29,642 nt of DNA, from positions 1 through 29,642 of IMG/VR virus record IMGVR_UViG_3300012204_000085, one strand, 5' to 3'. The DNA is from a virus. Under the pieces are notes generated by a model that saw nothing but the letters and a program-made list of their open reading frames with translations, was not told the DNA's origin and searched no databases. The position numbers and the translations under genes were made by a program. Each line of letters begins with the position of its first letter. The first letter of the stretch is position 1. Shown here piece after piece: positions 1-23,545 of this stretch.

Positions 1-134
1 CCTTATCTTTTCTTAAAAGCGGCCTGACGTATCTGATGGGGTCGCTGCACGCATTGAATGACGTCCATATATGGCGTGGTCGCCAGAGCCGCCGAACGGG
101 GTCCCCGATCGTATGCGATCGAGAACCCGCTGCG

Positions 135-181
135 AGCCGCCTGTCGGAATCGAACCGACGACCTGTGCTTTACGAGAGCAA
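135..181 (-). other. 3' half of a tRNA-Thr(CGT) gene: attachment-site core (att scar)
   Basis: Read on the minus strand, this gives an anticodon loop CTCGTAA (anticodon CGT, plus-strand 172-174), the 3' anticodon arm, a five-base variable loop, a perfect T arm (GTCGG, TTCGATT, CCGAC) and the 3' acceptor strand AGGCGGC. The D arm and 5' acceptor strand are absent: the sequence past 181 does not fold into them. A tRNA 3' half standing alone is the usual product of tyrosine-integrase insertion, which leaves a copy of the core at the far end and restores the intact tRNA at the other end. For a minus-strand tRNA this places the element to the right of 181 and the chromosomal flank at 1-134. The intact tRNA should lie beyond the right end of the window. 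Confidence 0.82.
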
Positions 182-3127: not shown

Positions 3128-3313
3128 GTGGTTGACAAGCGTGTGCGGTACGTCCTCGGGGCGCTCGTGTTGGCGACCCTGGCGATGTGCGTGGTGATCG
3201 CAGGCGTGGCCGTCGCCCAGTCATGGTCGACACCGAGGCCGGCGTGGTCTCCGATGAGCCGGTTTGAGCCCGGGCCACAGCAGCCTGCCGGTGGTAATTG
3301 CCCAGGCCGATGA
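3128..3313 (+). CDS. Small single-pass membrane protein (61 aa)
   Basis: I place the start at the GTG at 3128 because AAGGGGGGAAACGTCC lies directly upstream; the frame is open earlier but without a ribosome site. After a short basic N-terminus (VDKRVRY) there is one clear membrane helix (VLGALVLATLAMCVVIAGVA), then a proline-rich tail ending GGNCPGR. It ends 29 bp before the Cas12m start and is probably co-transcribed. No family is recognised. A small membrane protein beside a CRISPR effector could be an accessory, but such proteins are also common in integrative elements, so I draw no functional link. Confidence 0.5.
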   Translation: MVDKRVRYVLGALVLATLAMCVVIAGVAVAQSWSTPRPAWSPMSRFEPGPQQPAGGNCPGR

Positions 3314-3342
3314 CGGCAGTTGTCTTTCGAGAGGTAGCAATC

Positions 3343-5343
3343 ATGGCGACGTTGGTGTACCGCTACGGCGTTCGCGCGCACGGGTCAGCGCGGCAGCAGG
3401 ATGCCGTGGTGTCGGATCCAGCGATGTTGGAGCAACTGCGGCTCGGCCACGAGCTCCGCAACGCCCTGGTGGGGGTGCAGCACCGGTACGAGGACGGCAA
3501 ACGCGCGGTGTGGTCGGGGTTCGCGTCGGTGGCCGCGGCGGATCACCGGGTAACCACCGGCGAGACCGCCGTGGCCGAACTGGAGAAGCAGGCCCGCGCT
3601 GAACATTCCGCCGACCGCACCGCCGCCACGCGGCAGGGCACGGCCGAAAGCCTCAAGGCCGCCCGGGCCGCGGTGAAACAGGCCCGCGCCGACCGCAAGG
3701 CCGCAATGGCAGCCGTGGCCGAGCAGGCCAAGCCGAAGATTCAAGCGCTGGGCGACGACCGCGATGCTGAGATCAAGGACCTGTACCGGCGGTTCTGCCA
3801 AGACGGTGTCCTCCTTCCCCGGTGTGGCCGCTGCGCAGGAGACCTACGCAGCGACGGCGACTGTACCGACTGCGGCGCCGCCCACGAGCCGCGCAAGCTG
3901 TACTGGGCCACCTACAACGCCATCCGGGAGGACCACCAGACCGCCGTGAAGCTGGTCGAGGCCAAGCGCAAGGCCGGCCAGCCGGCCCGGCTGCGGTTCC
4001 GCCGCTGGACCGGCGACGGCACACTCACCGTGCAGCTGCAACGCATGCACGGCCCGGCCTGCCGATGCGTGACCTGCGCCGAGAAGCTGACCCGACGCGC
4101 CCGCAAGACCGACCCGCAGGCGCCCGCGGTCGCCGCCGACCCCGCCTACCCGCCCACCGACCCGCCCCGCGACCCGGCGCTCCTCGCCTCGGGGCAGGGC
4201 AAATGGCGCAACGTGCTGCAGCTGGGCACCTGGATACCCCCGGGCGAATGGTCGGCGATGAGCCGCGCCGAGCGGCGCCGCGTCGGGCGCAGCCACATCG
4301 GCTGGCAGCTGGGCGGCGGTCGCCAGCTGACCCTGCCGGTCCAGCTGCACCGGCAGATGCCCGCCGATGCAGATGTGGCCATGGCGCAGCTGACCCGCGT
4401 CCGTGTCGGCGGCCGGCACCGCATGTCGGTCGCGTTGACCGCGAAACTCCCCGACCCGCCGCAGGTGCAGGGCCTGCCGCCGGTGGCCCTGCACCTGGGG
4501 TGGCGGCAGCGGCCCGACGGGTCGCTGCGGGTGGCAACCTGGGCCTGCCCGCAGCCCCTCGATCTGCCACCGGCCGTAGCCGACGTGGTCGTCAGCCACG
4601 GCGGCCGCTGGGGTGAGGTCATCATGCCCGCCAGATGGCTGGCCGACGCGGAGGTTCCGCCGCGGCTGCTCGGCCGCCGCGACAAGGCCATGGAACCCGT
4701 CCTGGAGGCCCTCGCGGACTGGCTGGAAGCACATACCGAAGCGTGCACCGCCAGGATGACCCCGGCGCTGGTGCGGCGCTGGCGCTCCCAGGGCCGCCTC
4801 GCCGGGCTCACCAACCGGTGGCGCGGCCAACCGCCCACCGGTTCGGCCGAGATCCTGACCTACCTGGAGGCGTGGCGAATCCAGGACAAGCTCCTGTGGG
4901 AGCGGGAAAGCCACCTCCGTCGCAGGCTCGCCGCCAGACGCGACGACGCCTGGCGCCGCGTCGCTTCCTGGCTCGCGCGCCACGCCGGCGTCCTGGTCGT
5001 CGACGACGCCGACATCGCCGAGCTACGCCGCCGCGACGACCCGGCCGACACCGACCCGACCATGCCCGCCAGCGCCGCCCAGGCCGCCCGCGCACGTGCG
5101 GCCCTGGCCGCCCCAGGCCGCCTGCGCCACCTGGCCACCATCACCGCGACCCGCGACGGCCTCGGCGTACACACCGTGGCCTCGGCCGGCCTGACCCGGC
5201 TGCACCGTAAATGCGGCCACCAAGCCCAACCAGATCCCCGCTACGCCGCCTCCGCCGTCGTGACCTGCCCGGGCTGCGGCAACGGCTACGACCAGGACTA
5301 CAACGCGGCCATGCTCATGCTGGACCGGCAGCAGCAGCCATGA
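3343..5343 (+). CDS. cas12m: Type V-M CRISPR effector Cas12m (666 aa), RuvC-I Asp replaced by His
   Basis: This is an RNA-guided DNA-binding effector. I choose the ATG at 3343 (MATLVYRYGV) because GAGAGG lies just upstream; open codons at 3298 and 3310 lack a site. It closely resembles what I recall of Mycolicibacterium Cas12m: LRLGHELRNALVG near the N-terminus, LYWATYNAIREDHQTAVK, GDGTLTVQLQR, VALHLGWR and a C-terminal zinc ribbon (RKCGH, then CPGCGNGYDQD). RuvC-I reads HLGWR with His384 where nucleases have Asp. RuvC-II reads VVDDADIAEL with Asp554 where Glu is usual. RuvC-III keeps DQDYNAA (Asp650/Asp652). Cas12m is known to bind DNA and silence transcription without cutting, and the His fits that. 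Compared with the about 596-aa protein I recall, this one carries two cysteine-rich insertions (161-177 and 240-245). Its stop overlaps the cas4 start (ATGA). Confidence 0.9.
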   Translation: MATLVYRYGVRAHGSARQQDAVVSDPAMLEQLRLGHELRNALVGVQHRYEDGKRAVWSGFASVAAADHRVTTGETAVAELEKQARAEHSADRTAATRQGTAESLKAARAAVKQARADRKAAMAAVAEQAKPKIQALGDDRDAEIKDLYRRFCQDGVLLPRCGRCAGDLRSDGDCTDCGAAHEPRKLYWATYNAIREDHQTAVKLVEAKRKAGQPARLRFRRWTGDGTLTVQLQRMHGPACRCVTCAEKLTRRARKTDPQAPAVAADPAYPPTDPPRDPALLASGQGKWRNVLQLGTWIPPGEWSAMSRAERRRVGRSHIGWQLGGGRQLTLPVQLHRQMPADADVAMAQLTRVRVGGRHRMSVALTAKLPDPPQVQGLPPVALHLGWRQRPDGSLRVATWACPQPLDLPPAVADVVVSHGGRWGEVIMPARWLADAEVPPRLLGRRDKAMEPVLEALADWLEAHTEACTARMTPALVRRWRSQGRLAGLTNRWRGQPPTGSAEILTYLEAWRIQDKLLWERESHLRRRLAARRDDAWRRVASWLARHAGVLVVDDADIAELRRRDDPADTDPTMPASAAQAARARAALAAPGRLRHLATITATRDGLGVHTVASAGLTRLHRKCGHQAQPDPRYAASAVVTCPGCGNGYDQDYNAAMLMLDRQQQP

Positions 5344-6083
5344 CCGGGCCGCGGGACGTGCCGGCGCTGGTGCCGGCCAGGATGCTCACCGAGTACGCCT
5401 ACTGCCCGCGGCTGTTCTTCCTCATGTGGGTCGACCGGCTCATGGCCGACAACGCCGACGTCGCCGAGGGCCGACGCCGCCACCTGAGGGTAGACAAGCC
5501 CACCGGCAAGGTCCCACCACCCGGCGGCGACCTGAAGATCGCCCGCTCGGTGGAGCTGGGCAGCGAAGAGCTCGGCATCATCGCCAAGCTCGACCTCCTC
5601 GAAACCACCCCCGGCGGCACCGTGACGCCGGTGGAGTTCAAGAAAGGGCGACCGGCACCCGCCGGCGGGGCGTGGGAACCCGACACGGTCCAACTCTGCG
5701 CGCAGATCCTGCTGCTTCGCGACCACGGCTACGACTGCGACTACGGCTACCTGTACTACGCCGCGACCCACCAGCGCATCCAGGTCGAACCCACCGAAGA
5801 GCTGATCGACAAAACCCTGGCCATCGTGCACGCCGCACGCACCACCGCCGAGCGACTCAAGCCGCCGCCACCCCTGGTCGCCAGCCCAAATGCCCCCGCT
5901 GCTCGCTGGTGGGCATCTGCCTCCCCGACGAGATCAACGCCCTCCGCCAGCGTGGCACACCCACTCCTCGGCGGCTACTGGCCTCCAAGCCCGACAGCCA
6001 GCCCCTGTACGTCACCGAGCAAGGCACCATGGTCGGCGTCAGCGGCGGCCGCCTTGTCGTCACCCGCAAGGGTGAGCGGCTGA
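5340..6083 (+). CDS. cas4: Cas4 domain of a Cas4-Cas1 fusion, zero-frame reading that loses the last Fe-S cysteines
   Basis: Cas4 is a RecB-like nuclease that trims prespacers and selects PAMs with Cas1-Cas2. Seen here: AYCPR (first Fe-S cysteine, about residue 21), GIIAKLDLLE (metal-binding Asp), VEFKKG (Glu and Lys of the active site) and TVQLCAQILLLRDHGYDCDYG (Gln motif). The ATG at 5340 overlaps the Cas12m stop. Family members end with three more cysteines in a KCPRCSLVGIC-like motif. Here that motif is present but in the -1 frame, from 5891 on. The frame listed runs on to a TGA at 6083 as unrelated sequence. Either this is a broken gene, a sequencing slip in CCCAAAT, or a programmed frameshift. 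With the shift, one protein of about 550 aa spans 5340-6991. Confidence 0.85.
   Translation: MTGPRDVPALVPARMLTEYAYCPRLFFLMWVDRLMADNADVAEGRRRHLRVDKPTGKVPPPGGDLKIARSVELGSEELGIIAKLDLLETTPGGTVTPVEFKKGRPAPAGGAWEPDTVQLCAQILLLRDHGYDCDYGYLYYAATHQRIQVEPTEELIDKTLAIVHAARTTAERLKPPPPLVASPNAPAARWWASASPTRSTPSASVAHPLLGGYWPPSPTASPCTSPSKAPWSASAAAALSSPARVSG
5885..5891 (+). other. Cas4/Cas1 frame junction: heptamer C CCA AAT
   Basis: In the Cas4 frame the codons are agC CCA AAT. A -1 slip turns CCA AAT into CCC AAA and continues TGC CCC CGC TGC, giving PKCPRC, exactly the missing Cas4 motif and then Cas1. The heptamer has the X XXY YYZ form of -1 slippery sites. Against programming: the zero-frame stop is far away (6081-6083), AAT is not a favoured slip codon in bacteria, and homopolymers are common error sites. 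Confidence 0.6.
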
Positions 6084-6991
6084 CCACCGTCCGCCTGCTT
6101 GACGTACTGCAACTCTGCCTCTACGGAGACGTGCAGCTGACCGCCCAGGCCATGCGCACGCTCCTCGACCTCGGCATCGAGGTGTTCCACTTCTCCTACG
6201 GCGGCTGGCTGCAAGCCGTCACCACCGGCCTACCCGGCAAGAACGTCATGCTGCGCATCCGCCAGACCACCGCCGCCGCCCGCGCCGACCTCACCGCCCC
6301 CCGCCGGATGATCGCCGGAAAGATCCGAAACCAGCGAACCATGCTGCGCCGAAACGGTGGCGAGGTCTGCGCCAGGGTCGTCGGCCAGCTCGGCCAGCTT
6401 GCCGATGCCGCCGAGCACGCCGAAGACGCGGCCGAGCTGCTCGGCACCGATGGGGTCGCGGCACGCCTGTACTTCGACGCTTTCCCCAGCCTGGTCCCGC
6501 ACGCCACGGGCCTGCCCGGTCCGGCCTTCAGTGGCCTACGTAACCGGCGACCACCGACAGACGCCGTGAACTGCCTCCTCAGCTTCTGCTACGCCCTGCT
6601 CACCAAAGAGATCATGGCGGCGGCGGTCACCGTCGGTTTCGACCCCTACATCGGCCTGTTCCACCGGCCGCGCTTCGGCCGGCCAGCCCTCGTCCTAGAC
6701 CTGGCCGAAGAATTCCGGCCACTGGCCGCCGACTCCACCACCATTACGCTGATCAACACCAGGCAACTCGGCCGCGACGACTTCGTGGTGCGCGCCGGCG
6801 CGGTCAACCTCACCCCAGCGGGGCGCAGGATCGTGATCCGTGCCTGGGAACAGCGCATGACCACCGAGCTGCGCCATCCGGCCTTCGGCTACCAGGTCTC
6901 CTACCGGCGCGCAATGGAGCTACAGGCCCGGCTGCTGGCAGCCGCCCTGATCGGTGACGCACCCCGCTACGACCCGTTGACCACCCGGTGA
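5891..6991 (+). CDS. cas1: Cas1 integrase domain of the Cas4-Cas1 fusion (in the -1 frame to Cas4)
   Basis: This begins with the Cas4 Fe-S tail (CPRCSLVGICLPDE), then a linker, then Cas1 from about 5960: LYVTEQGTMVGVSGGRLVV, a conserved DVLQLCLYGDVQLT strand and the helical domain. Cas1 inserts spacers with Cas2. His (6662-6664, LFHRP) and Asp (6698-6700, LDLAEEF) of the metal site are present. The usual Glu of the EGxxAxxYF motif is Asp here (TDGVAARLYFDAF, codon 6449-6451). There is no convincing independent start: GTG at 5909 is in frame but lacks a ribosome site, so production probably depends on frameshifting or on the true frame being continuous. The TGA is 7 bp before cas2. Cas4-Cas1 fusions are known from types I-G and V-B. 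Confidence 0.88.
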   Translation, partial: CPRCSLVGICLPDEINALRQRGTPTPRRLLASKPDSQPLYVTEQGTMVGVSGGRLVVTRKGERLTTVRLLDVLQLCLYGDVQLTAQAMRTLLDLGIEVFHFSYGGWLQAVTTGLPGKNVMLRIRQTTAAARADLTAPRRMIAGKIRNQRTMLRRNGGEVCARVVGQLGQLADAAEHAEDAAELLGTDGVAARLYFDAFPSLVPHATGLPGPAFSGLRNRRPPTDAVNCLLSFCYALLTKEIMAAAVTVGFDPYIGLFHRPRFGRPALVLDLAEEFRPLAADSTTITLINTRQLGRDDFVVRAGAVNLTPAGRRIVIRAWEQRMTTELRHPAFGYQVSYRRAMELQARLLAAALIGDAPRYDPLTTR

Positions 6992-6998
6992 GCCGGCC

Positions 6999-7283
6999 AT
7001 GGCCCGGCGCCGCTACCTGCTCGCCTACGACGTCCGAGACCAACGCCGCCTCCAGTTGGTCGCCCGCTGCGCCGAAGGCTTCGGCGACCGCGTGCAGTAC
7101 TCCGTCTTCGTCTGCGACCTGTCCGAGGTCGAGCTGATCAAGATGAAGACCAGCCTCGAACTGTTGATCGACAGAGGGCAGGACAGCATCATGGTCATCG
7201 ACCTTGGAAGCGAGGACGCCTCCCGCTTCACGTTCATGGGCCAACCACTGAAGCTGCCCAACAACTCGGCGCTGATCATCTAG
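6999..7283 (+). CDS. cas2: CRISPR adaptation protein Cas2 (94 aa)
   Basis: The length and pattern are normal for Cas2: RRRYLLAYDVRDQRRLQLV with the conserved Asp after the first strand, then QYSVFVCDLSEVELIKMK and SIMVIDLGS. The C-terminal FMGQPLKLPNNSALII fits the strand that docks on Cas1. It starts at ATG 6999 just after the cas1 stop and ends 186 bp before the first repeat. Cas2 dimers bridge two Cas1 dimers to form the integration complex. The intact state of cas2, with a young-looking array, suggests that acquisition worked recently. Confidence 0.93.
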   Translation: MARRRYLLAYDVRDQRRLQLVARCAEGFGDRVQYSVFVCDLSEVELIKMKTSLELLIDRGQDSIMVIDLGSEDASRFTFMGQPLKLPNNSALII

Positions 7284-7468
7284 CGGACCGCGAGCGGCAC
7301 ATCGAGCAGAACCGCCAGCGTGGCCGCTCGCAACAGCAGAACACCAGGTGAAGGCCACTGAACCACAAGACCGAGACCCCACCAAGTTCCTTGACACCTC
7401 CACACAGGCCAGGCCGCTCGCGAGCTCAGCCAACATCGCAGCTCACGGCTGCTTCACCAGAGCGAGCC
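7284..7468 (+). promoter_or_regulatory. CRISPR leader with hairpin and a consensus -35 box
   Basis: This is the non-coding stretch between cas2 and the first repeat. A hairpin at 7290-7331 (GCGAGCGGCAC with GTGGCCGCTCGC, one bulged G) may end the cas mRNA; there is no T-run. TTGACA at 7391-7396 is a perfect -35 hexamer, though I see no good -10 at the usual distance. Repeats at the far end of the array are the degenerate ones, which supports the leader being on this side. Confidence 0.6.
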
Positions 7469-9710
7469 GTCGAAATGCCCGCGCGGGGGCGTCGTACCCG
7501 CGACCGCGTGGCCGCCGGTGCGCAGGTCGGTGATCTTGGCCGTCGAAATGCCCGCGCGGGGGCGTCGTACCCGCGACAACTGGTCGTGACCTACCTACCG
7601 CCGACCAACGAGGTCGAAATGCCCGCGCGGGGGCGTCGTACCCGCGACGTGTCGGCGGCGCCAGTTCGACCAGTGCAGCCAAGTCGAAATGCCCGCGCGG
7701 GGGCGTCGTACCCGCGACCGCTGCTGTCGATCTGGCGGCGGGCCGTTCGTATAGTCGAAATGCCCGCGCGGGGGCGTCGTACCCGCGACTCGGCCTCGGT
7801 CCGGCCGATCCCGCCGGCGGCCGAGTCGAAATGCCCGCGCGGGGGCGTCGTACCCGCGACTGATCTCCATCATGGTCTGGCCATCGCGGGATCGGATGTC
7901 GAAATGCCCGCGCGGGGGCGTCGTACCCGCGACGGAACCCCGGGCGAGGTGATGTCGCAGGTCAGCACCTCGTCGAAATGCCCGCGCGGGGGCGTCGTAC
8001 CCGCGACGGTACTCCTGGTCCGGCGACCTCGACCGCAGCTTCGGTCGAAATGCCCGCGCGGGGGCGTCGTACCCGCGACCAGAAGGCCGTGTATCCGGTG
8101 ACAACGACCCACGTCGAAATGCCCGCGCGGGGGCGTCGTACCCGCGACCCGAAGCGACACTACGCCGCACCCGCAGTGGCACCCGTCGAAATGCCCGCGC
8201 GGGGGCGTCGTACCCGCGACCCTGAAACGAGCTGCGAGGAGCACAACCGCTTCCTCGTCGAAATGCCCGCGCGGGGGCGTCGTACCCGCGACGGATGAGG
8301 AGTTCGCCGGCGAGGTTGGTGGCATCCTGTCGAAATGCCCGCGCGGGGGCGTCGTACCCGCGACATCAAGCACGACGAACCCTGGCCGCCTGTCCGGCCG
8401 TCGAAATGCCCGCGCGGGGGCGTCGTACCCGCGACCATTTGGGTAACTTTGGTGAGGCTTGCTATGGCCCTAGTCGAAATGCCCGCGCGGGGGCGTCGTA
8501 CCCGCGACCGGTGGGCCGTGACGTTGCTTCGCTTACGCGGCAAGTCGAAATGCCCGCGCGGGGGGCGTCGTACCCGCGACTCCGCCATCGTGTGGAATTC
8601 ACCACCTCACCGTGGTCGAAATGCCCGCGCGGGGGCGTCGTACCCGCGACTGAGTCTCCACGACTCACGCCGGTCCGGATTCCGTCGAAATGCCCGCGCG
8701 GGGGCGTCGTACCCGCGACGGGATATCTGAATACCAAGATACTCACATGCGACCAGTCGAAATGCCCGCGCGCGGGGGCGTCGTACCCGCGACAGGATCT
8801 TGACCATGAGCACGTTCTGGGCAGGCGGGAGTCGAAATGCCCGCGCGGGGGCGTCGTACCCGCGACCTCTGCACTCGGGCCGAGATCAAGGACTTCGAAG
8901 AGCGTCGAAATGCCCGCGCGGGGGCGTCGTACCCGCGACCGGGGCAACAGGTTTTCGTCGCGCTGGCCCTCCGGCGGGTCGAAATGCCCGCGCGGGGGCG
9001 TCGTACCCGCGACGTGGGCAGGCACATGGTGTGGTTCCCCGCGCGGGGGCGTCGTACCCGCGACTGGGCTGATGTCGTCAGCTTCTCGGTGCCGCGGCGA
9101 GGTCGAAATGCCCGCGACGGATGGCGCGTTACCGGTTATGCGCGCGGTTAGGGCGGTCGAAATGCCCGCGCGGGGGCGTCGTACCCGCGACTGGCCCCTG
9201 TTCTCGGTCGCGCGGTCGGGTCGACTTGTCGAAATGCCCGCGCGGGGGCGTCGTACCCGCGACGTGATGCAGGTCGACCTGCGGGACATGAAGGCCGCGG
9301 AGTCGAAATGCCCGCGCGGGGGCGTCGTACCCGCGACGAGGACATCGGTATCCATCCTTCGGTGGCGTCGCACGGTCGAAATGCCCGCGCGGGGGCGTCG
9401 TACCCGCGACACCAACAGTGTCGGTAGCGCAGTCGCGATCGACCTGTCGAAATGCCCGCGCGGGGGCGTCGTACCCGCGACCTGTATCGCCCGTCCCCTC
9501 TCGATCAATGTCGACGGGTGTCGCAATGCCCGCGCGGGGGCGTCGTACCCGCGACTGGGAACCGGTCGGCAGGGGTCCCGTCCCCACCGCACCGCGAGCG
9601 TCGCAATGCCCGCGCGGGGGCGTCGTACCCGCGACGGCGCCGGGTACCGCACCCCGGCCGCCATGCGCGGAGGTCGAAATGGCCCCGCGCGGGGGCGTCG
9701 TACCCGCGAC
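7469..9710 (+). CRISPR. Type V CRISPR array: about 32 repeats of 36 bp, 31 spacers
   Basis: The repeat starts GTCGAAATGCCCGCGC and ends GTCGTACCCGCGAC. Most copies are identical. Spacers are 33-38 bp, with one of 44 (9556-9599). The repeat can fold as CGCGGG/CCCGCG with a 9-base loop, leaving AC before the spacer, a plausible 5' crRNA handle. Variants: 8544-8580 has one extra G; 8756-8793 an extra CG; 9038-9064 lacks the 5' end; 9102-9118 is an internally deleted 17-mer; 9520-9555 and 9600-9635 have A-to-C at base 5; 9673-9710 has two extra bases. Decay towards 9710 and clean repeats near 7469 place the newest spacers at the cas2 side. No tracrRNA-like anti-repeat was seen, as expected for V-M. 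The first spacer (7505-7541) matches 16401-16437 perfectly. Confidence 0.98.
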
Positions 9711-9832
9711 ACCCTGCCATGGCGGCTCCGAGGTTGGCGCGGCCACCTCGCGCGGGAATGGCTGTCCTCTTCCACTTCCGCGTCAAGGATGTGCCGGCTG
9801 GCAAAGGGTTTCTACGGCATCGAGCGGGCGAC

Positions 9833-10078
9833 CTAGAACTCTCGCTCGGCTGAGAGCTGTCGCGGGCGGCGGAGGTTGGCGCCCTTGCCCGGCCGGCCCC
9901 TCAGCGCGGCGCGTAGCGGGACGGCAGCGTAAAGCGGCGTTCGTTCGTCGAGGTGCGCGACCGGCTCGATGCCGAGTCGGCTGATCTCTCGGCGCAGTGA
10001 GGCGCTGGACAGGCCCGTTTCGGCGGCTGCCTGCCGGGTGGTCAGGGCAAGCCTGCCGTCAACTGTGATCCGGATCAT
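9833..10078 (-). CDS. Small helix-turn-helix protein, excisionase/MerR-like (81 aa)
   Basis: The N-terminus MIRITVDGRLALTTRQAAAE continues into TGLSSASLRREISRLGI, a helix-turn-helix, followed by a short wing-like segment (EPVAHLDERTPLYAA) and a basic tail. The pattern LTTRQAAAETGLSSASLRR resembles excisionase/MerR-type first helices. I choose ATG 10078; a GTG at 10096 is in frame and would overlap a half-copy of the neighbouring operator. It is divergent from the DUF2637-type gene across a palindrome (10133-10156), so repression of that promoter or of its own is likely. An excisionase role for the element is possible but unproven. Positions 9711-9832 before it hold no recognisable gene. Confidence 0.65.
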   Translation of the reverse strand: MIRITVDGRLALTTRQAAAETGLSSASLRREISRLGIEPVAHLDERTPLYAAVPLRAALRGRPGKGANLRRPRQLSAEREF

Positions 10079-10128
10079 TGGCCCCACGCCCGCCACGCTA
10101 GCGCGGCAAGCCAGCCCCGTCTACCCCC

Positions 10129-10157: not shown

Positions 10158-10233
10158 AAGGGGCATGACAGCGATCCGCGTAGAGCGCGACACCCGCAGC
10201 TCCGCGTCCCCCAGCTTCGTCCAGGAGGACACC

Positions 10234-10914
10234 ATGACCGTAACCAACCCCACCGTTATCGAGCTGCCCCGCCTGCGCCGGGTCCGCTGGGCCGTGCGCG
10301 CGACCCTAAGCCTCGGCGTGGCCGCCTCGGTCGTGGCCAACGTGCTACACGCCGTGGACAACCCCATCTCGCAGGCGATCGCCGCCTGGCCGCCCCTCGC
10401 CTTGCTGCTCACCGTCGAGCTCATCTCACGGGTGCCGGTGCACCGCCGCTCCCTCGCGGCCGCCCGGCTGGTCGCCACCGCGGCAATCGCCGGGATCGCC
10501 GCCTGGATCTCCTACTGGCACATGGCCGGCGTGGCGGCCCGCTACGGCGAGACCGGCGCCTCGGCGTACCTGCTGCCGTTCTCCGTCGACGGGCTGATCG
10601 TTGTGGCCAGCGTCTGCCTGGTGGAGCTCGCCGGCCGGATCCGCGACCTCGAGGTCGCGCCGGCCGTCCTACCGGTGCCAGCGGTGGCCGAGCCGGCGCC
10701 GGAGCTGCCGGCCGAGCTGCTGGCTCGGGCGACCGAGGCCGCGCGCAGGTACCTGGCCGACACCGGCAAGCCGATCAACCGTGACGCGCTTGGCCGGGCA
10801 CTGCGCGTGCGCAACGAGGTGGCAACCCGTCTGGTGCGCCCCGCCCGCACCGCGGCCGCGACGACCAACGGCACTCCGATGCCCGAGTTGCTGGCGGCGG
10901 TCAGCGCCTCCTGA
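10234..10914 (+). CDS. DUF2637-type membrane protein with C-terminal HTH-like domain (226 aa)
   Basis: Four hydrophobic segments lie in the first 150 residues: TLSLGVAASVVANVLHAV, QAIAAWPPLALLLTVELI, LVATAAIAGIAAWISYWHM and ASAYLLPFSVDGLIVVASVC. The pattern of a transmembrane pair with NVLHA, SYWHM and PFSVDGLIV is that of the DUF2637 family, common on actinomycete integrative elements, plasmids and phages. After a proline/alanine linker, the C-terminal RYLADTGKPINRDALGRALRVRNEVATRLV looks like a helix-turn-helix. I choose ATG 10234 for its strong AGGAGG site; ATG 10165 is in frame and could serve a leaderless transcript. The function is unknown. The linked DNA-binding-like tail suggests tethering of DNA or of a regulator to the membrane. 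Confidence 0.82.
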   Translation: MTVTNPTVIELPRLRRVRWAVRATLSLGVAASVVANVLHAVDNPISQAIAAWPPLALLLTVELISRVPVHRRSLAAARLVATAAIAGIAAWISYWHMAGVAARYGETGASAYLLPFSVDGLIVVASVCLVELAGRIRDLEVAPAVLPVPAVAEPAPELPAELLARATEAARRYLADTGKPINRDALGRALRVRNEVATRLVRPARTAAATTNGTPMPELLAAVSAS

Positions 10915-11931: not shown

Positions 11932-12417
11932 CTACATGCGCGGCGGCACGCTGCCGGGCGGGATCGGTGTCCCGGTGCGGCGGGCCTGCTGCTCGCGGAG
12001 GTGCTGTACGGCCTCGGGCGGCTTCCTCTGGGCGTTGTTGCGCAGGCCCCAGACCCCGATGGCGCCCAGCGCGCTGCCGAGGATGATCTGCCACTCGTCC
12101 GGGGTGATCTGGTTGTCGGTCACGGCCGCTTGCATCGCGACGCCGCCGGCGGCCAGGGCCGCGACGATCAGCTTGCGGTACCCGCTCAGCGGCGGCCGGG
12201 GGCCTCGGCGAGCGTAGGCGTCGGCGAAGTGCTTGGGCAGCCACGCGGTGAGGACGGCGATCGCGGTGACGGTGATCTCCTGCGGGACGTAGCCGGCGAT
12301 CAGCTCGGTCCATGGCACGGTGTTCGGGTTCCGGTCGAGGCCGGCCACGAACTCCAGCAGGATCGCGATCGCCGTCGGTACCAGGATGAGCGCGTTGGAC
12401 ACGCCGCGTTTGGTCAT
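11932..12417 (-). CDS. Holin-like phage membrane protein (161 aa), last late gene
   Basis: ATG 12417 overlaps the previous stop. Hydrophobic segments: GVSNALILVPTAIAILLEFV (residues about 5-24), PQEITVTAIAVLTAWLP (about 45-61), KLIVAALAAGGVAMQAAVTD (about 83-102) and QIILGSALGAIGVWGLRNNA (about 110-130). The tail is charged, RKPPEAVQHLREQQARR, ending in prolines. The size, the several membrane segments and the position at the end of the late operon fit an actinophage holin, which times membrane opening at lysis. There is no sequence signature beyond topology. Transcription towards it comes from the right and would cross the self-targeted site at 16401-16437. Confidence 0.65.
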   Translation of the reverse strand: MTKRGVSNALILVPTAIAILLEFVAGLDRNPNTVPWTELIAGYVPQEITVTAIAVLTAWLPKHFADAYARRGPRPPLSGYRKLIVAALAAGGVAMQAAVTDNQITPDEWQIILGSALGAIGVWGLRNNAQRKPPEAVQHLREQQARRTGTPIPPGSVPPRM

Positions 12418-12725
12418 GACGGTCCTTCCGTGGTCGCGGGCAGCATCGCCCGCACGAAGGCATCTTTGGCCTCGATCAACCGCTGGAGGCCGGTGAGGAG
12501 CTGGTCGACGTCGCCGCCGGCCGGAAAGCGTCTGGCCATCTCGTGCGCCAGGTCGTGGCACATCTGGCTCGTCGGTCGCGGGTACGGCGGCAGCTGCTTG
12601 TACTCGAACCAGCGCAGCCGGGCGGCGACCGCCGGGTGTCGCTCGATGATGCTCTGCGCGTCGCGGGCTCGGTGGCACACGGCCGGGTCACACGTCGAGT
12701 GGTCCAGGTCGTCGGGCAGCGGCAC
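12414..12725 (-). CDS. Small helical phage protein (103 aa), function unknown
   Basis: It begins MPLPDDLDHSTCDPAVCHRA, with two cysteines. The core is FEYKQLPPYPRPTSQMCHDL, then AHEMARRFPAGGDV and LLTGLQRLIEAKDAFVRAML. The layout (aromatic start, loop with a proline run, long helix, P-A-G-G turn, second helix with L..L.EAKDA.VRA) recalls the small helical-hairpin proteins grouped with Acb2/Tad1 nucleotide sponges in phages. The resemblance is loose and from memory. It overlaps the holin-like start by four bases and is surely co-translated with it. Such proteins are frequent in actinophage late regions. Confidence 0.6.
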   Translation of the reverse strand: MPLPDDLDHSTCDPAVCHRARDAQSIIERHPAVAARLRWFEYKQLPPYPRPTSQMCHDLAHEMARRFPAGGDVDQLLTGLQRLIEAKDAFVRAMLPATTEGPS

Positions 12726-13117: not shown

Positions 13118-13759
13118 TCAGTTGAGGTGGTCGGCGAGCACCCCGTTGCTGAGGTGCCCGTGGTAGTAGCCCGCCGTGCCGGGTGTGCCGATGGCGATCG
13201 ACGGCGTGACGCTCACGTTGGCCTGCCGCGGGTCGCCGGACCGGGTCCAGAAGCCGCCGGTGGAGGAGGGTTCGTCGACCGGCCAGTCGTGGTCCATGCC
13301 GGGCGTACCGTCCGGGCGTGGGCAGCGCACCATTAGCGCGATGCCGTCGGGGCCCTTGCGGGTCAGCCAGTGCGCGTCGAACGTGGCGCCGGCTTCGGCG
13401 GTGGGCGCGTCCGGTGGGGCGTGCCGCCAGTGCAGCACCCGCAGCTGGCCGGTGTCGGCGCGCCGGTACAGCCGCTCGGACCAGGTCTGCCAGGCGTCGC
13501 CCTCGACGAACCGGTAGCCGCAGCCGTTGGCGCATTCGGTGGGCCAGCGCGGGTCGTCGTGCGGCGGCGCCGGCCGCCAGGACAGGTCGTGGTAGCCGCG
13601 CTCGTTCCAGGCGGTGTCGACCTCCTCGCCGGTCCAGGCGAGGGCCTCGTGCCAGCCGCCGGCGCAGGTGAACGCGCCGCCCTGGTACCTGCTGGTGTAG
13701 CGGCGCAGGCCGCGTCGGTCGCGGCCGACCGGTTCCAGCCAGAACGTCTGCCAGCTCAC
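13118..13759 (-). CDS. Unknown phage protein with repeated Trp/Gly-rich segments (213 aa)
   Basis: I prefer GTG 13759 (MSWQTFWLEP) because GAAGGAG lies 8 bases upstream; ATG 13780 is in frame but its ribosome site is poor and it would sit inside the SOS box. The protein is rich in Trp, Asp and Gly. It contains a cysteine pair in WPTECANGCGYRFVEGDAW, suggestive of a small zinc or disulphide site, and segments such as HDLSWRPAPPHDDPRWP and GMDHDWPVDEPSS. The C-terminal NVSVTPSIAIGTPGTAGYYH looks like a beta structure. No membrane segment. It is probably a virion or late protein; the function is unknown. Confidence 0.7.
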   Translation of the reverse strand: MSWQTFWLEPVGRDRRGLRRYTSRYQGGAFTCAGGWHEALAWTGEEVDTAWNERGYHDLSWRPAPPHDDPRWPTECANGCGYRFVEGDAWQTWSERLYRRADTGQLRVLHWRHAPPDAPTAEAGATFDAHWLTRKGPDGIALMVRCPRPDGTPGMDHDWPVDEPSSTGGFWTRSGDPRQANVSVTPSIAIGTPGTAGYYHGHLSNGVLADHLN

Positions 13760-13763
13760 GCCC

Positions 13764-13797
13764 TTGACTCCTTCGAACATTTGTTCGGTACGGTGTG
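13764..13797 (+). promoter_or_regulatory. SOS box (LexA operator) over a plus-strand promoter
   Basis: CGAAC-ATTT-GTTCG at 13774-13787 is a perfect match to the actinobacterial LexA core CGAAC-N4-GTTCG. It lies between TTGACT (13764-13769) and TACGGT (13789-13794, fits TANNNT), a 19-bp spacer, so bound LexA would block the promoter. The next plus-strand start codons, GTG 13795 and ATG 13798, are where a leaderless message would begin. It also covers the 5' end of the minus-strand gene. Confidence 0.7.
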
Positions 13798-14080
13798 ATG
13801 GTGGAGGACGACGAGCGGCAGCTGGTCGACCAGCTGGTGGAGGTGACCAACCGGCACCAGCAGCCACCAGCCGGACGGCTGGCGCGCCCGGGCGCTCGAG
13901 GAGATCCGGGCCATGACAACGGATCCGCGGCTGTTGACCGAGGCCGCGGTCTACCACTGGCGGGGCGGGGCCTGGTGGCGTCATGTCGCGGCCGAGCTGC
14001 TCGTCGAGGCGGGCGCCGACCGGGCGCGGGCGCTGGAGGAGGCGAAGGCCCGGGGCCACCGCTACGCGGGACAGCGCTGA
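13798..14080 (+). pseudogene. Small SOS-controlled gene in two frames (possible frameshift)
   Basis: From ATG 13798 the frame reads VEDDERQLVDQLVEVTNRHQ and then loses protein-like character. From about 13847 another frame (+1 relative to the first) reads HQPDGWRARALEEIRAM, TTDPRLLTEAAVYHWRGGAW and WRHVAAELLVEAGADRARAL, ending at TGA 14080. Joined, they would give about 90 aa of helical, Trp-containing protein. Alternatively ATG 13913 starts a separate 55-aa protein. Both parts look more protein-like than the antisense frame. No family is recognised. The SOS box directly upstream suggests expression on DNA damage, against the direction of the late operon. Confidence 0.4.
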
Positions 14081-14092: not shown

Positions 14093-14542
14093 TTAGTGTG
14101 CCGGGGTGCCGCCGAGCTGGGTTTGGGCGTGCTCGGTCAGGCCGCGCAGGGTGGCGATCTCCCGGTCGCGGGCGTCGATGGTTGCCTGGGCGGCGACCAG
14201 CTGGGTACGCAGGACGGCGGCCTCTTCGCCGAGCCGGCGTTCGTTGCGGTCGTACTGGTCGATGCGGGCGCGCAGCTCGGCGACCTCGGTGCGCAGCTGC
14301 GCGATGTCGGCCTCGGCGGCGGCGGCGCGCTCTTCTGCCGCCCGCGACCGTCGCTCCGCGGCGGTCCACGTGCGGTCGATCTCCGCCCGGGCGTGCTCCA
14401 TCGTGGTGGCGGCGACCTGCTGAGCCAGGCCGGCGATGTCGAGGGCCGGCTTGCGGCGGTAGCGCCAACGGTCCAGCAGGTGCACGGCGCCGCCGGCGCC
14501 CAGGATCAGGGTGGCGTAGCCGGCCAGCGCCGCGAGGTCCAT
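14093..14542 (-). CDS. Membrane-anchored coiled-coil protein, possibly spanin/holin-like (149 aa)
   Basis: One N-terminal membrane helix (LAALAGYATLILGAGGAVHL) is followed by a basic stop (DRWRYRRKP) and a long coiled coil (residues about 45-135: RSRAAEERAAAAEADIAQLR, then TEVAELRARIDQYDRNERRL and further heptads). This is the shape of Rz-type inner-membrane proteins. In a Gram-positive host a true spanin is not expected, so it may instead be a lysis-cassette or virion-associated membrane protein. It lies 3 bp after the stop of the preceding zinc-peptidase-like gene, in the lysis-like end of the operon. Confidence 0.7.
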   Translation of the reverse strand: MDLAALAGYATLILGAGGAVHLLDRWRYRRKPALDIAGLAQQVAATTMEHARAEIDRTWTAAERRSRAAEERAAAAEADIAQLRTEVAELRARIDQYDRNERRLGEEAAVLRTQLVAAQATIDARDREIATLRGLTEHAQTQLGGTPAH

Positions 14543-14545: not shown

Positions 14546-15517
14546 TCAGCTGTCGGCCGGCCGGTCGCCGCGGGCGGCGTCGGCGGCGTGTTGGAGCGCG
14601 TCGGCGACCTCGCCGCGGCTGCCCTCTTCGGCGCCTTCGCGGGCGGCCGTGGCGGCGGCGTCGATGACGGCCTGCCGCTGCTCGGCCAGCTGCTGCAGCA
14701 GGGCGGCCCGGGTCTGCTGCTCCTGTTCGGCCAGGGCGGCCTGCAGCTGGGCGAGGTCGTCGGGGCTCATGCTGTTGCCGGGGTCCTGCGCGGCGAGCTC
14801 CAGCAGCTTGTCCACCTTGGAGCCCAGCACGGTCAGCGCCGCGGCGTGCTCGACGATGCGTTTGTCGGTGGCGGCCTGCCACGCCTCGTCGCGCATGCGC
14901 CATTTGACCGGCTCGACCGGGGTCTTGTCGGCGATGGTGGATACGCCGAGCCGCCACGCCTGGATGATCTGGTCGGTGAGCTCGCTCACGTCATCTCCCA
15001 GGAGCTCGGCCACCGGGTCGTACCCGGCGGCGACGTCGGAGAGGTGGTAGTCGGTGCGGCCGGACAGGTGCAGGTGGCCGCGGTCGCTGGTGGGGCTGGT
15101 GGTGTGGTTGGGTTTCCACGACTCGTGGCGGGCGGCGCCCTGCTCGTCGGTCCAGTTGAGGTACTTGACCCAGGCGACCTCGCGGCGGCCGGCGTTGCGG
15201 TCGGCGATGAGCTTGCGGGCCAGCTGGGCCAGCGTGGGCGCGCCGGGCGGTACCTCCACCGCGACCGACAGGCGCATCACGTCCACGGCCAGGACGTAGG
15301 GGTAGGGCTGCGGCCCGGGCCACGGGGTGGCCGAGTAGGGGCAGTGGTCCTGCGGCGGGTCGGCCAGCAGGTGCCGCTCGTCGCCGAGGCCGATGACGTC
15401 GAGGCGGCCGACGTTGTACCCGTAGCGGTGCAGGGTGAGCGCGAGGTCGCGGACCGGGCGGGCGGTGGCGGCCGGCTGCTCGTCCTGCAGCCAGCCCCGG
15501 TACGTGGTCACCGCCAT
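14546..15517 (-). CDS. Possible zinc peptidase (M15/Hedgehog-like fold) with coiled-coil tail: candidate endolysin or tail protein (323 aa)
   Basis: The first 175 residues contain three features in the order expected of M15-like zinc enzymes: DHCPYSATPWPG (His), YPYVLAVDVMRLS (Asp) and RGHLHLSG (His-x-His). Before them, RLDVIGLGDERHLLA matches the lead-in of related actinophage proteins that carry a DHxP...AxDI motif. The C-terminal 100 residues form a Gln/Ala/Glu-rich coiled coil (AQLQAALAEQEQQTRAALLQ). If real, it would cleave peptide cross-links of peptidoglycan, either at lysis or from the virion. No other endolysin is visible in the window, which supports the idea. The motif spacing is unusual, so this is inference. 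Confidence 0.55.
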   Translation of the reverse strand: MAVTTYRGWLQDEQPAATARPVRDLALTLHRYGYNVGRLDVIGLGDERHLLADPPQDHCPYSATPWPGPQPYPYVLAVDVMRLSVAVEVPPGAPTLAQLARKLIADRNAGRREVAWVKYLNWTDEQGAARHESWKPNHTTSPTSDRGHLHLSGRTDYHLSDVAAGYDPVAELLGDDVSELTDQIIQAWRLGVSTIADKTPVEPVKWRMRDEAWQAATDKRIVEHAAALTVLGSKVDKLLELAAQDPGNSMSPDDLAQLQAALAEQEQQTRAALLQQLAEQRQAVIDAAATAAREGAEEGSRGEVADALQHAADAARGDRPADS

Positions 15518-15836: not shown

Positions 15837-16946
15837 TTAGGCGGGCTCGTACTCGAGGTCCCAGCGGATGATGTCGGTCTGCGCCCAGACGTGCGGGTTG
15901 TTGTTGGTGACGTCCCCACCCGCGGCGGCGATCAGCAGCAGGTTGTTGGCGTCGGCGAAGATGCAGATGCCGGCCTTGTTCTGGGTGCCGACGTCGGCGA
16001 GGTACGCCGAGCCGACGGCCCGGCCGATCGCGTTGGCGCTCGCGGCGACGGGTGCGGTGACGCGGTAGCTGCCGGTGCCGAAGGTGGTGCTCGAGCCGAA
16101 GGTCATCGCGCCGGCGACCTTGACCATGCCCTTGTCGAGGCTGGAACGGCGCCAGTAGCCGCCGATGGTTCCGTTGCCCAGCGCGGGTGCGGTGCCGGTG
16201 GTGGTCCACACCGGCACGTAGGAGGTCCAGTCGCCGTTGAGCCAGGCGCCCGCGGTGACGTCATAGACCTCGATGCGTTTGAGGTCCATGCGCCAGATCG
16301 TCATGCCGTCGTACTGGACGATGAGGTCCCGTTGCGCCTGGTTGGCCACCGGCAGGATGCCGCCGACGGCCACGCTGTACAGGCCGCCGATGAGGCTTTT
16401 CGCGTGGCCGCCGGTGCGCAGGTCGGTGATCTTGGCCGCGGTGATGGTGTTGGCGTTGGCGTCCACCCGCACCCGGGCCAGGGCGACGTAGTCCTGCGAC
16501 CCGGTCACGGTCGGGTCCGACGGCGTACCGGACGGGGCGCCGACGACCTGCCGGACCTGGAAGGGGCTTGACGCGTCGCCGTAGAACGTGTCCGACTGCT
16601 GGGCGATGATCAGGTCGTCGCGGGGGTTGGTCGGGTCCGCCGGCGTCGAGAGAACGTTGATGTCTTTCTGGGCGTCCAGGCACGCCTGGTACACCCCGGC
16701 GACGCTCGCGCGGCCCGACTGCAGCATCAGCTGGAACGGGGCGACGTGGACGAACGCGTCGGGGGTGCCGGTGGCCGTCACCAGGCCGGGGCTGGTGCCC
16801 GGGCCGGGCCGGAAGCCGCTCTTGGCCTTGACGATGCTGGCGCTGGAAGGCGTGACGAGCGCGCCGATGGCCACGCGGCATTCCTCGACGTCGAGGAGCC
16901 CGGACGGGCCGGAGGCTTGCACCGCCCACGAGTCGCGCTCGGCCAC
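15837..16946 (-). CDS. Tail fibre/minor tail protein (369 aa), carries the self-targeted site
   Basis: The N-terminal half has the pattern of baseplate-linked fibre proteins: MAERDSWAVQASGPSGLLDV, VHVAPFQLMLQSGRASVAGV and PRDDLIIAQQSDTFYGDAS, followed by YVALARVRVDANANTITAAK, then the common tail motif ITDLRTGGHA. The C-terminal half is strand-rich (WTTTGTAPALGNGTIGGYWR, then KVAGAMTFGSSTTFGTGSYR) and looks like a receptor-binding or trimeric domain. It lies among tail genes in usual order. The codons for AKITDLRTGGHA correspond exactly to CRISPR spacer 1 (7505-7541). Confidence 0.8.
   Translation of the reverse strand: MAERDSWAVQASGPSGLLDVEECRVAIGALVTPSSASIVKAKSGFRPGPGTSPGLVTATGTPDAFVHVAPFQLMLQSGRASVAGVYQACLDAQKDINVLSTPADPTNPRDDLIIAQQSDTFYGDASSPFQVRQVVGAPSGTPSDPTVTGSQDYVALARVRVDANANTITAAKITDLRTGGHAKSLIGGLYSVAVGGILPVANQAQRDLIVQYDGMTIWRMDLKRIEVYDVTAGAWLNGDWTSYVPVWTTTGTAPALGNGTIGGYWRRSSLDKGMVKVAGAMTFGSSTTFGTGSYRVTAPVAASANAIGRAVGSAYLADVGTQNKAGICIFADANNLLLIAAAGGDVTNNNPHVWAQTDIIRWDLEYEPA
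16401..16437 (+). other. Protospacer perfectly matching CRISPR spacer 1, with 5' TTTT PAM
   Basis: All 37 bases equal spacer 1 (7505-7541) in the same orientation. The site is preceded by GAGGCTTTT, so TTTT lies directly 5', as type V effectors (TTN for Cas12m as I recall) require. The array copy is preceded by the repeat end GCGAC instead, so self-recognition flanks are absent at the target. The crRNA would pair with the minus strand, the coding strand of the tail gene. Confidence 0.95.
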
Positions 16947-16957: not shown

Positions 16958-17566
16958 TCACGATCCGATGCCGATGGCGTAGACGACGAGCACGGCGATG
17001 GTGTTGGCGCCGGCGGTGATGCGGGCCTCGACGTCGACCTTCATCGGCGCCCCGGTTCCGGTGAGGGCGGGCGCGACGAGGGTGCGGTCGAGGTTGGTCT
17101 CCACGGTGGCGGCGGTGCCGACCACCAGGATGGCGCCGAGGACCTGGCCGGTGGCCCGGTCCCGGAGGCGGACCTCGCCGGCGGTGCCGGCGCCGGTGAC
17201 CGCCCGGATGCGGACCCGGATGCGCGGGTGCTGCGGTTCGGTGGCGCAGGTCAGCAACGCGACGAAGGCGCCCGAGGTGGTGGAGGTGACGGGCGCGGCG
17301 CCCGGCGCGGTCTCCAGGTTGGTGGCGTAGACGTTCCACGGCAGGTAGGGCCGGTTGAGGCCGAAGCCGGAGGCGTCGTTGGTGACCAGGTTGGTGCCGG
17401 ACTGGTCGCGCACACTCTTCTGGTTGCGTTTGGCGGCACGCCGGGACCGGGCGGTGGAGCGGGTGCGGCTGCTGCCCCCACTGGTCGTGGAGCGGGCCAC
17501 CTGGGCCGAGCTGGCGAAGCTGATCGCCGGTGAGGACGGCAGCCGGATCTCGGCGATGAGCCCCAT
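16958..17566 (-). CDS. Unknown tail-region protein, beta-rich C-terminus (202 aa)
   Basis: The basic, Ser/Arg-rich N-terminus (ARSTTSGGSSRTRSTARSRR) is followed by a compact strand-rich domain: SGAFVALLTCATEPQHPRIR, VRIRAVTGAGTAGEVRLRD and KVDVEARITAGANTIAVLVV. It lies between the Gp37-like tail protein and the fibre, each with 1-12 bp gaps, so it is likely a minor tail or baseplate component. I do not recognise a named family. Confidence 0.75.
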   Translation of the reverse strand: MGLIAEIRLPSSPAISFASSAQVARSTTSGGSSRTRSTARSRRAAKRNQKSVRDQSGTNLVTNDASGFGLNRPYLPWNVYATNLETAPGAAPVTSTTSGAFVALLTCATEPQHPRIRVRIRAVTGAGTAGEVRLRDRATGQVLGAILVVGTAATVETNLDRTLVAPALTGTGAPMKVDVEARITAGANTIAVLVVYAIGIGS

Positions 17567-17567
17567 G

Positions 17568-18701
17568 TCAGGCCACCTCCTGGACCGACTGGCAGATCAG
17601 CTTGACGGTCTCCTGGCCCTGGTCGTCGATGTCGACCTCGATCGCGAGGATCCGCACGGTGAGCTCGATGCCGTCGCTGAAGAGCAGGTCGCCGGCGGGG
17701 ATGACCATGTGGGCGTCGTCGCCGACGCTGACCTCGCCGAGGGTGGGTGCCAGCTCGGCGCGCACCCGCAGCTCGGGGGTGACCACGGGAAGCTTGCCGC
17801 CGGCCAGGAGGGTGTCGGCGTGCTGCTGCAGGGTGGCCGGCACGGTGACGTCGGCGAACACGTCGTCGGTTTCCAGCAGCGGCCAGCCGTCGCCGTAGCG
17901 GCTGGCGTCCTCGGCGACCGCGAAGAGGGTGCCGCGCTCCTCACCGTCACCTTCGGCGAACGCGCGGGTGGCCATGACCCCGGCGGCGGAGCTCCACCGG
18001 TAGGACAGCAGGTTGCCGCCGGCGTCGAAGCGGTGCGGCGAGCCCTGCTGGCCGAGCTTGGGCATCCCGGTGCGCATCAGCCGCGTGGGGCGCCCGTTGG
18101 CGTCGAAGGTGCCGACGTCGAAGACGACGTCGGGCCCGTTGCTGACGCCGGCGAGCTCGCGCAGCGCCTCGCCGACGTCGACCAGGTCGTAGCCCTGGTA
18201 GGTGCGGTCGCGCAGGATCCCGGACAGGGCGGCGTCGACGACGATGCCGATGTCGCCGCCGGTGTGCGACTGGGCGAGGGTGACCAGGCTGCGGGCGATC
18301 GTGTTCTGGTCGAGGCCGGTGTACACGGTGGACAGTCCGGCGACGTAGCTGGGCGCGGCCGGCAAGGTGAGCACCGGCAGCATCTTGCGATGGTCGAAGT
18401 AGGACCAGAAGTCGGCACAGCCGAGCTCGAGGACGCGGGTGTCGGAGTCGTAGTCGGAGGCCCAGATGATGCCGCCCCACCAGGGGCGGTTGTCGCGGAC
18501 CGCGTACACCACGCGGCGGGCGGGGCGGGTCATGTCGTAGACGTTGCGGGCGGCCAGCTTCGCATCGCCGAGGGTCGTCTGCGCGCGCAGCTGCCCGGAC
18601 CCGTTGAGGACCTTGCTCATCCGCACGCCGCCGGACAGGGGTAGCTCGCCGATGATGACGCCGGAGCCGAGCGCGGCGATCAGGTAGGTCCAGGCGGCCA
18701 T
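17568..18701 (-). CDS. Siphovirus Gp37-like minor tail protein (tail hub region, 377 aa)
   Basis: The features recalled for the ReqiPepy6 Gp37-like family are seen: an N-terminal GSGVIIGELPLSGGVRMSKV, VVYAVRDNRPWWGGIIWASD, then LELGCADFWSYFDHRKML, and a late LPVVTPELRVRAELAPTLGE with GLxV-type ending (VRILAIEVDIDDQGQETVKL). It follows the distal tail gene immediately, the usual place of the tail hub/baseplate protein that forms the tip and holds fibres. There is no enzymatic motif. The stop codon is one base from the next start region, so translation is tightly coupled. Confidence 0.8.
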   Translation of the reverse strand: MAAWTYLIAALGSGVIIGELPLSGGVRMSKVLNGSGQLRAQTTLGDAKLAARNVYDMTRPARRVVYAVRDNRPWWGGIIWASDYDSDTRVLELGCADFWSYFDHRKMLPVLTLPAAPSYVAGLSTVYTGLDQNTIARSLVTLAQSHTGGDIGIVVDAALSGILRDRTYQGYDLVDVGEALRELAGVSNGPDVVFDVGTFDANGRPTRLMRTGMPKLGQQGSPHRFDAGGNLLSYRWSSAAGVMATRAFAEGDGEERGTLFAVAEDASRYGDGWPLLETDDVFADVTVPATLQQHADTLLAGGKLPVVTPELRVRAELAPTLGEVSVGDDAHMVIPAGDLLFSDGIELTVRILAIEVDIDDQGQETVKLICQSVQEVA

Positions 18702-18702
18702 G

Positions 18703-19614: not shown

Positions 19615-19617
19615 CGC

Positions 19618-21768: not shown

Positions 21769-21791
21769 CGGTCACCTCCTGGCGGCGGGGA

Positions 21792-22450: not shown

Positions 22451-22463
22451 TGTGGACCTTTCG

Positions 22464-22886: not shown

Positions 22887-22899
22887 CGCCCCTCCCCGG

Positions 22900-23534: not shown

Positions 23535-23545
23535 GGGGGGTGCCC

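Follow-up and report, generated by a model that had tools for sequence, protein, structure and literature searches.

How can a virus keep, in a clustered regularly interspaced short palindromic repeats (CRISPR) array of its own, a spacer that matches its own genome? The question is raised by the virus record IMGVR_UViG_3300012204_000085, analysed here over its complete length of 29,642 nucleotides (hereafter the window), which contains a CRISPR array of 31 repeats of 36 nt with 30 spacer intervals (7469-9710, + strand) and a set of cas genes. If the system cuts, acquiring such a spacer should be fatal to the carrier; with an effector that does not cut, a phage could keep the spacer and make use of it. 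We hold with moderate confidence that the second situation applies: that spacer 1 was derived from the phage itself and is tolerated since the effector, Cas12m, binds its target and blocks transcription rather than cutting, with the effect that late gene expression is damped and sibling phages are silenced.

Spacer 1 (7505-7541, + strand) is identical at 37 of 37 positions to 16401-16437, also on the + strand, and a third copy occurs nowhere in the window. The identity continues for one base, to 38, into the first G of the next repeat (E 7e-14). The 5' flank of the protospacer reads GGCTTTT, of which TTTT (16397-16400, + strand) directly abuts the protospacer and contains a protospacer adjacent motif (PAM) of the 5'-TTN type; from 9711 onward TT begins at 1.6% and TTTT at 0.015% of the positions of the window, both strands counted. 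The flanks of 16401-16437 do not resemble the 36-nt repeat. What we see is a full match, with a PAM, outside the array and on the same replicon. A first-pass annotation of this DNA had reported the exact match, the type V PAM directly 5' and the dissimilarity of the target flanks to the repeat, and on all three points we came to the same result.

A second record, IMGVR_UViG_3300012532_000100 (45,616 b, hereafter the sister record), has both copies of the 37-mer and extends 16 kb further. Compared over 29,585 b (window 58-29642), the two records differ at three single bases (6451, 8233 and 8246), the last two of which both fall within spacer 11. The 28 spacers of 25-50 nt were compared, on both strands, with the window (array masked) and with the extension of the sister record, ten shuffles being run per spacer and the intervals of 15 and 91 nt being left out. 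Spacer 1 was the only one to match the phage, with 0 mismatches against 12 in the best of its ten shuffles. The other 27 spacers had no phage match; their 10-17 mismatches were close to those of the shuffles, spacers 3, 12, 21 and 27 being one mismatch below their own best shuffle and the remaining 23 not below it. Chance is excluded as the source of the spacer 1 match by the 37/37 identity, the E value of 7e-14 and the shuffles of spacer 1, which had at least 12 mismatches. It is unlikely that two molecules were misjoined at the repeated 37-mer, because each copy keeps its own flanks and the sister record has both copies and all the DNA between them; array and target are probably on one molecule, as the first-pass annotation had assumed. 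It could still be argued that these are database virus contigs, and two records perhaps not independent, in which an assembly artefact joined two molecules. We regard this as highly improbable: the records agree over 29,585 b with only the three differences, and the attachment-site signatures described below frame the whole element.

The extension of the sister record encodes both terminase subunits and a ParB-like protein, and ends with a tyrosine integrase gene (phrog_1, E 4.8e-50) adjoining a tRNA-Thr(CGT) gene. Window positions 134-180 exactly repeat the 3'-terminal 47 bp of this tRNA gene (L016 17419-17465), the identity stopping at both edges. A tRNA 3' part repeated beside an integrase gene is the usual sign of phage integration into a tRNA gene, and we interpret 134-180 as the 47-bp core of the left attachment site. 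The prophage then spans about 45.3 kb, from window position 134 to position 45,464 of the sister record. The CRISPR-Cas locus (3298-9710) lies inside this prophage because the two core copies, the tRNA-Thr gene and the integrase gene frame the element, and phage-family genes flank the locus on both sides. On its left is a helix-turn-helix transcriptional regulator (466-1671, + strand; phrog_5823, E 8.5e-58; HTH_31), with a GntR-type regulator in between (1925-2185, - strand; Pfam GntR, E 3.7e-17). On its right, between the array and the structural genes, is a phage excisionase-family/DUF2637 protein (10165-10914, + strand; phrog_733, E 7.7e-11; DUF2637, E 3.1e-11), and farther on minor tail, tape measure, major tail, capsid, protease and portal genes were recognised by PHROG matches (16958-29642, - strand).

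The first-pass annotation had pictured a host chromosomal array aimed at a neighbouring prophage. The array does adjoin structural genes, and its spacer matches one of them, but array, cas12m, cas4-cas1 and cas2 are all enclosed by the two attachment-site copies of the prophage and flanked left and right by phage-family genes. We rejected this model on the evidence of the attachment sites, the tRNA and the integrase, and consider that there is hardly any chance of its being correct. The related suggestion, that the host acquired the spacer before lysogeny, is not the right frame because the array lies inside the prophage: it is the phage that carries a spacer against itself. The other suggestion, that the system keeps the prophage down, may still apply in the form of self-silencing encoded by the phage. 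An integrase gene, a tRNA-derived repeat at both ends and a structural and packaging set including TerL and TerS were all found, and judged from its genes the carrier is a temperate, siphophage-like phage. Its host was probably an actinobacterium. The nearest relative of TerL is that of Streptomyces phage Chymera (63.6%), and the tRNA-Thr region matches 277 of 394 Actinomycetes genomes, among the matches listed mostly over the tRNA itself.

The position of spacer 1 in the array suggests that it is the newest one. Repeats 1-15 are identical, whereas the six changed repeats (16, 19, 23, 29, 30 and 31) are all in the far half. Because the changed repeats are confined to that half and cas2 adjoins repeat 1, the leader-proximal position of spacer 1, stated already in the first-pass annotation, is supported, and the side of repeat 1 is likely to be the leader side. 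The putative leader is the gap between cas2 and repeat 1 (7284-7468, + strand), at the end with the unchanged repeats; it may contain a promoter. A stretch in the far half of the array (9014-9155) is damaged, with a 15-nt interval, a repeat with six changes and a 91-nt interval containing a repeat fragment.

Whether a self-matching spacer can be tolerated depends on the effector. The cas12m gene (3298-5343, + strand) encodes a protein of 681 aa, which was recognised by phmmer and PADLOC. Among solved proteins phmmer found 8pm4 (E 1.6e-101; PDB label 'Transposase'), which we take to be the Gordonia Cas12m, and Cas12m2 (8hio/8hhl, E 3.4e-87); the PADLOC match was to Cas12u1 (E 3.3e-132). The homology to Cas12m extends over the whole length of the protein, as expected of subtype V-M. 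MmCas12m2 reads a 5'-TTN PAM through Y141, W152, N156, Q195 and Q197, and with its RuvC triad H317-D485-D579 it binds without cutting (PMC10442227). Counting corresponding residues by hand on the phmmer alignment, we found all five PAM-reading residues kept (Y163, W203, N207, Q246 and Q248); H351 and R352 correspond to the residues H269 and R270 that bind the CRISPR RNA (crRNA), and H399-D569-D667 to the RuvC triad. All ten of these are kept in the Gordonia protein too. With the same H-D-D triad as MmCas12m2, the window Cas12m is predicted to bind DNA and not to cleave it, in line with what the first-pass annotation had proposed. Its self target carries TTT, which agrees with the kept PAM-reading residues and with the 5'-TTN PAM of the M. 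mucogenicum and G. otitidis proteins (other Cas12m proteins differ). GoCas12m, likewise of the H-D-D kind, acts by binding and not by cutting; in this way it blocks transcription and confers protection from both phages and plasmids, and silencing of integrated prophages has been proposed as an advantage of this in the discussion of the same paper (PMC11013384).

The likeness to the M. mucogenicum and G. otitidis V-M systems thus covers the effector homology, the H-D-D triad and the PAM-reading and crRNA-binding residues. With the G. otitidis system it includes a putative pseudoknot stem and the repeat, which in the same orientation shares 27 of 36 positions. The stem is CGCGGG/CCCGCG in the window, CGCGGA/TCCGCG in Gordonia and CGTAGA/TCTACG in G185, an Actinomycetes genome discussed below, the pairing being kept in the three repeats compared although both sides of the stem have changed. 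What distinguishes the window from both systems is its location inside a prophage and the self-matching newest spacer; its locus includes cas4-cas1 and cas2, and its array is longer than that of Gordonia (31 versus 6 repeats). Two Cys-rich insertions in the window protein (residues about 172-200 and 252-286) are lacking in the three plasmid-borne Cas12m proteins aligned with it.

The target gene (15837-16946, - strand; 369 aa) is best matched by the PHROG family 'virion structural protein' (phrog_3398, E 1.4e-21), and weakly by a minor tail family. The earlier label 'tail fibre-like' was right as to a phage structural gene and loose as to the kind. The gene lies within the late gene block. Its codons 170-182 correspond to the protospacer, and crRNA 1, which carries the + strand sequence, is antisense to the target mRNA. 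Downstream of the target and in the same direction there are four more open frames (14546-15517, 14093-14542, 13118-14059 and 11932-12678, - strand) with no confident family.

On these grounds (the exact match, the TTN-type PAM, the position between the attachment-site copies, the H-D-D triad and the PAM-reading residues, all of them observed) the following course of events can be proposed. The V-M CRISPR-Cas system belongs to a temperate phage and is encoded between the left attachment site and the structural genes; the newest spacer would have been taken from the genome of the phage itself or from that of a near-identical sibling. If the array is expressed, crRNA 1 would lead Cas12m to 16401-16437, where the protein would bind, leave the DNA uncut and block transcription of the structural gene and perhaps of the genes after it. 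The net effect in the lysogen would likely be damped late expression and silencing of incoming siblings, that is homotypic superinfection immunity. In this scheme the carrier survives its own spacer since the effector does not cut, and for that reason spacer 1 persists.

The phage itself or a very close sibling is favoured as the source of the spacer because, among the viral_contigs records, the 37-mer occurs in the sister record only, and because the relatives of the target protein do not have the PAM-proximal part. The two relatives found in other viral contigs (48-56% aa identity) are 8 and 10 residues shorter at the protospacer; the collection is, it must be added, incomplete for judging a spacer source. 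The competing explanation starts from another phage, related but distinct, that has the same 37 bases: the spacer would have been acquired from it in competition between phages, and the self-match would be collateral, tolerated since no cut is made. The target gene does have relatives in other phages, and there is a parallel in the viruses SPV1 and SPV2, whose virus-borne mini-CRISPR arrays have spacers that target related viruses and for which a role in superinfection exclusion was proposed (PMC6858448). The SPV arrays are without cas genes, unlike the window. According to the same paper, mutation or deletion of the corresponding locus in the carrier keeps it from targeting itself, whereas the locus in the window is intact, 37/37 with a PAM; the altered own locus that goes with heterotypic exclusion of the SPV type is thus missing. 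Since the 37-mer was found in the sister record only among the viral_contigs records, the two nearest relatives are without the PAM-proximal stretch and the array gave no match at E 0.1 among 50,697 phage records, we think it unlikely that competition between phages accounts for spacer 1.

A stronger version of a regulatory role would be that selection keeps spacer 1 as a brake on late genes, for the stability of lysogeny or for timing. It would fit the place of the target within the late gene block with more same-strand open frames after it, the ability of Cas12m proteins of the H-D-D kind to silence (PMC11013384) and the presence of spacer 1 in both records. The binding site, however, is at codons 170-182 and not in a promoter, and no second self-spacer was found among the 28 compared. 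Close relatives were not found, hence there is no series in which conservation could be followed, and the two records are perhaps from one population. Evolved autoregulation of this kind appears to us rather improbable.

At the other extreme, the system could be decaying and its self-match without effect. Signs of decay can be pointed out. The cas4-cas1 fusion (5211-6991, + strand; NCBIfam cas4g_cas1g) is split into two frames, Cas4 at 5211-6083 and Cas1 at 5426-6991, with profile positions 1-179 in one frame and 176-546 in the other, and the far half of the array has six changed repeats besides the damaged stretch at 9014-9155. Against this, cas12m, cas2 (6999-7283, + strand; Pfam CRISPR_Cas2, E 6.1e-19) and 25 of the 31 repeats are intact, and the frame switch occurs at an in-phase slippery-type heptamer, CCCAAAT (5885-5891, + strand), found by a heptamer search. 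It is the only X_XXY_YYZ heptamer (Y = A or T, Z not G) within 5343-7283, and at the heptamer itself the window and the sister record have no base difference. Because the switch point coincides with this heptamer, a programmed -1 frameshift yielding a Cas4-Cas1 protein is as plausible as a mutation. We give little credit to the idea that the locus is inert.

Some precedent for tolerated self-matches comes from a second V-M system. At E 1e-20, Cas12m was detected in two of the 394 Actinomycetes genomes, Gordonia and G185. The G185 system (G185:C1:88665-91871; L060 12666-15872), which was recognised by its Cas12m match and its neighbouring phage genes, lies at the tail and lysis end of a phage region: the array (nine repeats, eight spacers) and cas12m are just beyond genes for a tape-measure protein, a tail fibre and an endolysin, and terminase, portal and head protease genes are upstream. 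A tRNA scan found no tRNA gene in the region, and no other search for attachment sites was made there. Read in the orientation of G185 cas12m, spacer 5 is identical at 36 of 36 positions to a stretch on a different contig of this genome, with TTG 5', in an unassigned open frame beside a type I-E cas3/cse1 locus; the gene call at this place is uncertain, an opposite-strand frame overlapping it. Spacer 7 matches a third contig at 35 of 37 positions, also with TTG 5', in a csx10-like gene of a type III locus. The other six spacers had no comparable match in this genome. Taken together, the self-matches of the window and G185 have a TTN PAM in three cases out of three, where TT occurs at 1.6-2.8% of the positions, and all three spacers are antisense to their named open frame. 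We regard G185, with two of its eight spacers, as a precedent. In its effector the PAM-reading residues are kept, the RuvC His is replaced by R and the protein ends before the last Asp.

Of five arrays searched for self-matching spacers, two (window and G185) had them. A scan of thirteen other Cas12m loci for arrays gave one repeat pair in each of L018, L024 and L031 and none in the other ten; L025 has the same repeat pair as L024, and repeats are present in L021. In Gordonia otitidis the array is followed by a stretch which, by eye, looks like a tRNA 3' part (L022 12312-12420), possibly an old attachment site, and in which ARAGORN found no complete tRNA. Cas12m-bearing phages seem to be rare: at E 1e-5 none was found in the phages collection, and pattern-based scans of viral_contigs, by which few distant relatives are reachable, gave none beyond the sister record and one distant jumbo phage. 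The 372-kb record of the latter has two solitary repeat units elsewhere (G396:5994-6042, L053 ~1501-1549; G396:349118-349153, L054 ~1501-1536).

The remaining spacers were compared with larger collections. Among 72,556 plasmids the array gave two partial matches, by spacers 25 and 3. Spacer 25 (9264-9301) agrees at 35 of 38 positions with a Streptomyces plasmid gene (L036 4001-4038), the mismatches (3, 12 and 36) falling in one codon phase; the gene adjoins E1-E2 and JAB genes of a PADLOC-listed kind and the 5' flank is CTG. The partial match of spacer 3, 30 nt long and likewise flanked by CTG, falls in an IS701 transposase gene; over the spacer, 29 of 34 positions agree. Ten of the 394 Actinomycetes genomes had a match to the array at E <= 1e-4. 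Inspection of six of the eleven places listed (L067, L068, L070, L071 and L074 being left out) gave three spacer matches, two by spacer 25 in G020 and one by spacer 19 (8794-8830) in G243. The last (L066 1501-1537) is a 34/37 match with TTG 5', antisense inside a long open frame. Three places (L069, L072 and L073) overlap the boundary of repeat and spacer 1; they show 9-11 mismatches to spacer 1, and we treated them as noise.

Several points weigh against the interpretation that we prefer, a spacer derived from the phage itself and tolerated by a binding effector. The window and the sister record are not necessarily independent samples. A lone self-matching spacer may be an accident without function, and an undiscovered sister phage could be its source. 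Present-day acquisition is uncertain because cas4-cas1 is split by the frame switch. The G185 system may not work because the C-terminus of its effector is cut short, and its contigs may not belong together, should G185 be a metagenome bin. No self-matching spacer was found in the Gordonia array, in a Bifidobacteriaceae locus (L029, query 9440-10110, the repeat cluster 15204-15312 being left out) or in the jumbo phage with the distant Cas12m (L032), where other matches were weak (E 0.02 or worse). Finally, the partial matches of spacers 25 and 3 are flanked by CTG, not TTN.

It is useful to compare the phage with other mobile elements that carry CRISPR systems. V-M systems are known from plasmids and 'some prophages' (PMC11656645) or, in other words, 'plasmids and some viral genomes' (PMC13232261). 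Those treated in PMC11656645 likewise have a non-cutting effector on a mobile element; the role given is inter-plasmid competition, and the passages on them do not mention targeting of the carrier. Vibrio phage ICP1 also has a complete CRISPR-Cas system with adaptation genes, of type I-F and aimed at a host anti-phage island (PMC11656645), while the system described here is a non-cutting type V aimed at the phage itself. For arrays of the host, self-targeting is well covered in the review literature, including spacers against integrated prophages (PMC6990116); there too the spacer matches a prophage in the same cell, but the array is the host's and here it is the prophage's. It has been suggested that a provirus which loses its adaptation genes thereby escapes self-targeting (PMC12596717). 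Of the 299 phage CRISPR-Cas systems covered by a large survey, 250 were without acquisition genes, and the sole phage Cas12 in it was Cas12a (PMC12676247). In the text available to us from the literature, which included PMC12669027, PMC12607003, PMC11127173 and few subscription papers, we did not find any V-M array of a phage in which a spacer targets the phage carrying it.

If our interpretation is right, it may be the virus, not the host, that uses RNA-guided binding to quiet itself or its siblings. More tentatively, and with considerable doubt on our part, prophage-borne V-M systems might be mainly programmable repressors of DNA in the same cell, silencing their own late genes in the window and host defence loci in G185; for the window, the E1/JAB-linked gene resembling spacer 25 would possibly be a further target. 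Were this true, loss of cutting would be an adaptation that lets an array aim at self, and the system would be a phage-encoded RNA-guided regulatory network, not an immune memory. The case bears on how phages with adaptation genes of their own handle self-acquisition, and it makes testable the idea that V-M systems of mobile elements are silencers of co-resident DNA as much as immune memories.

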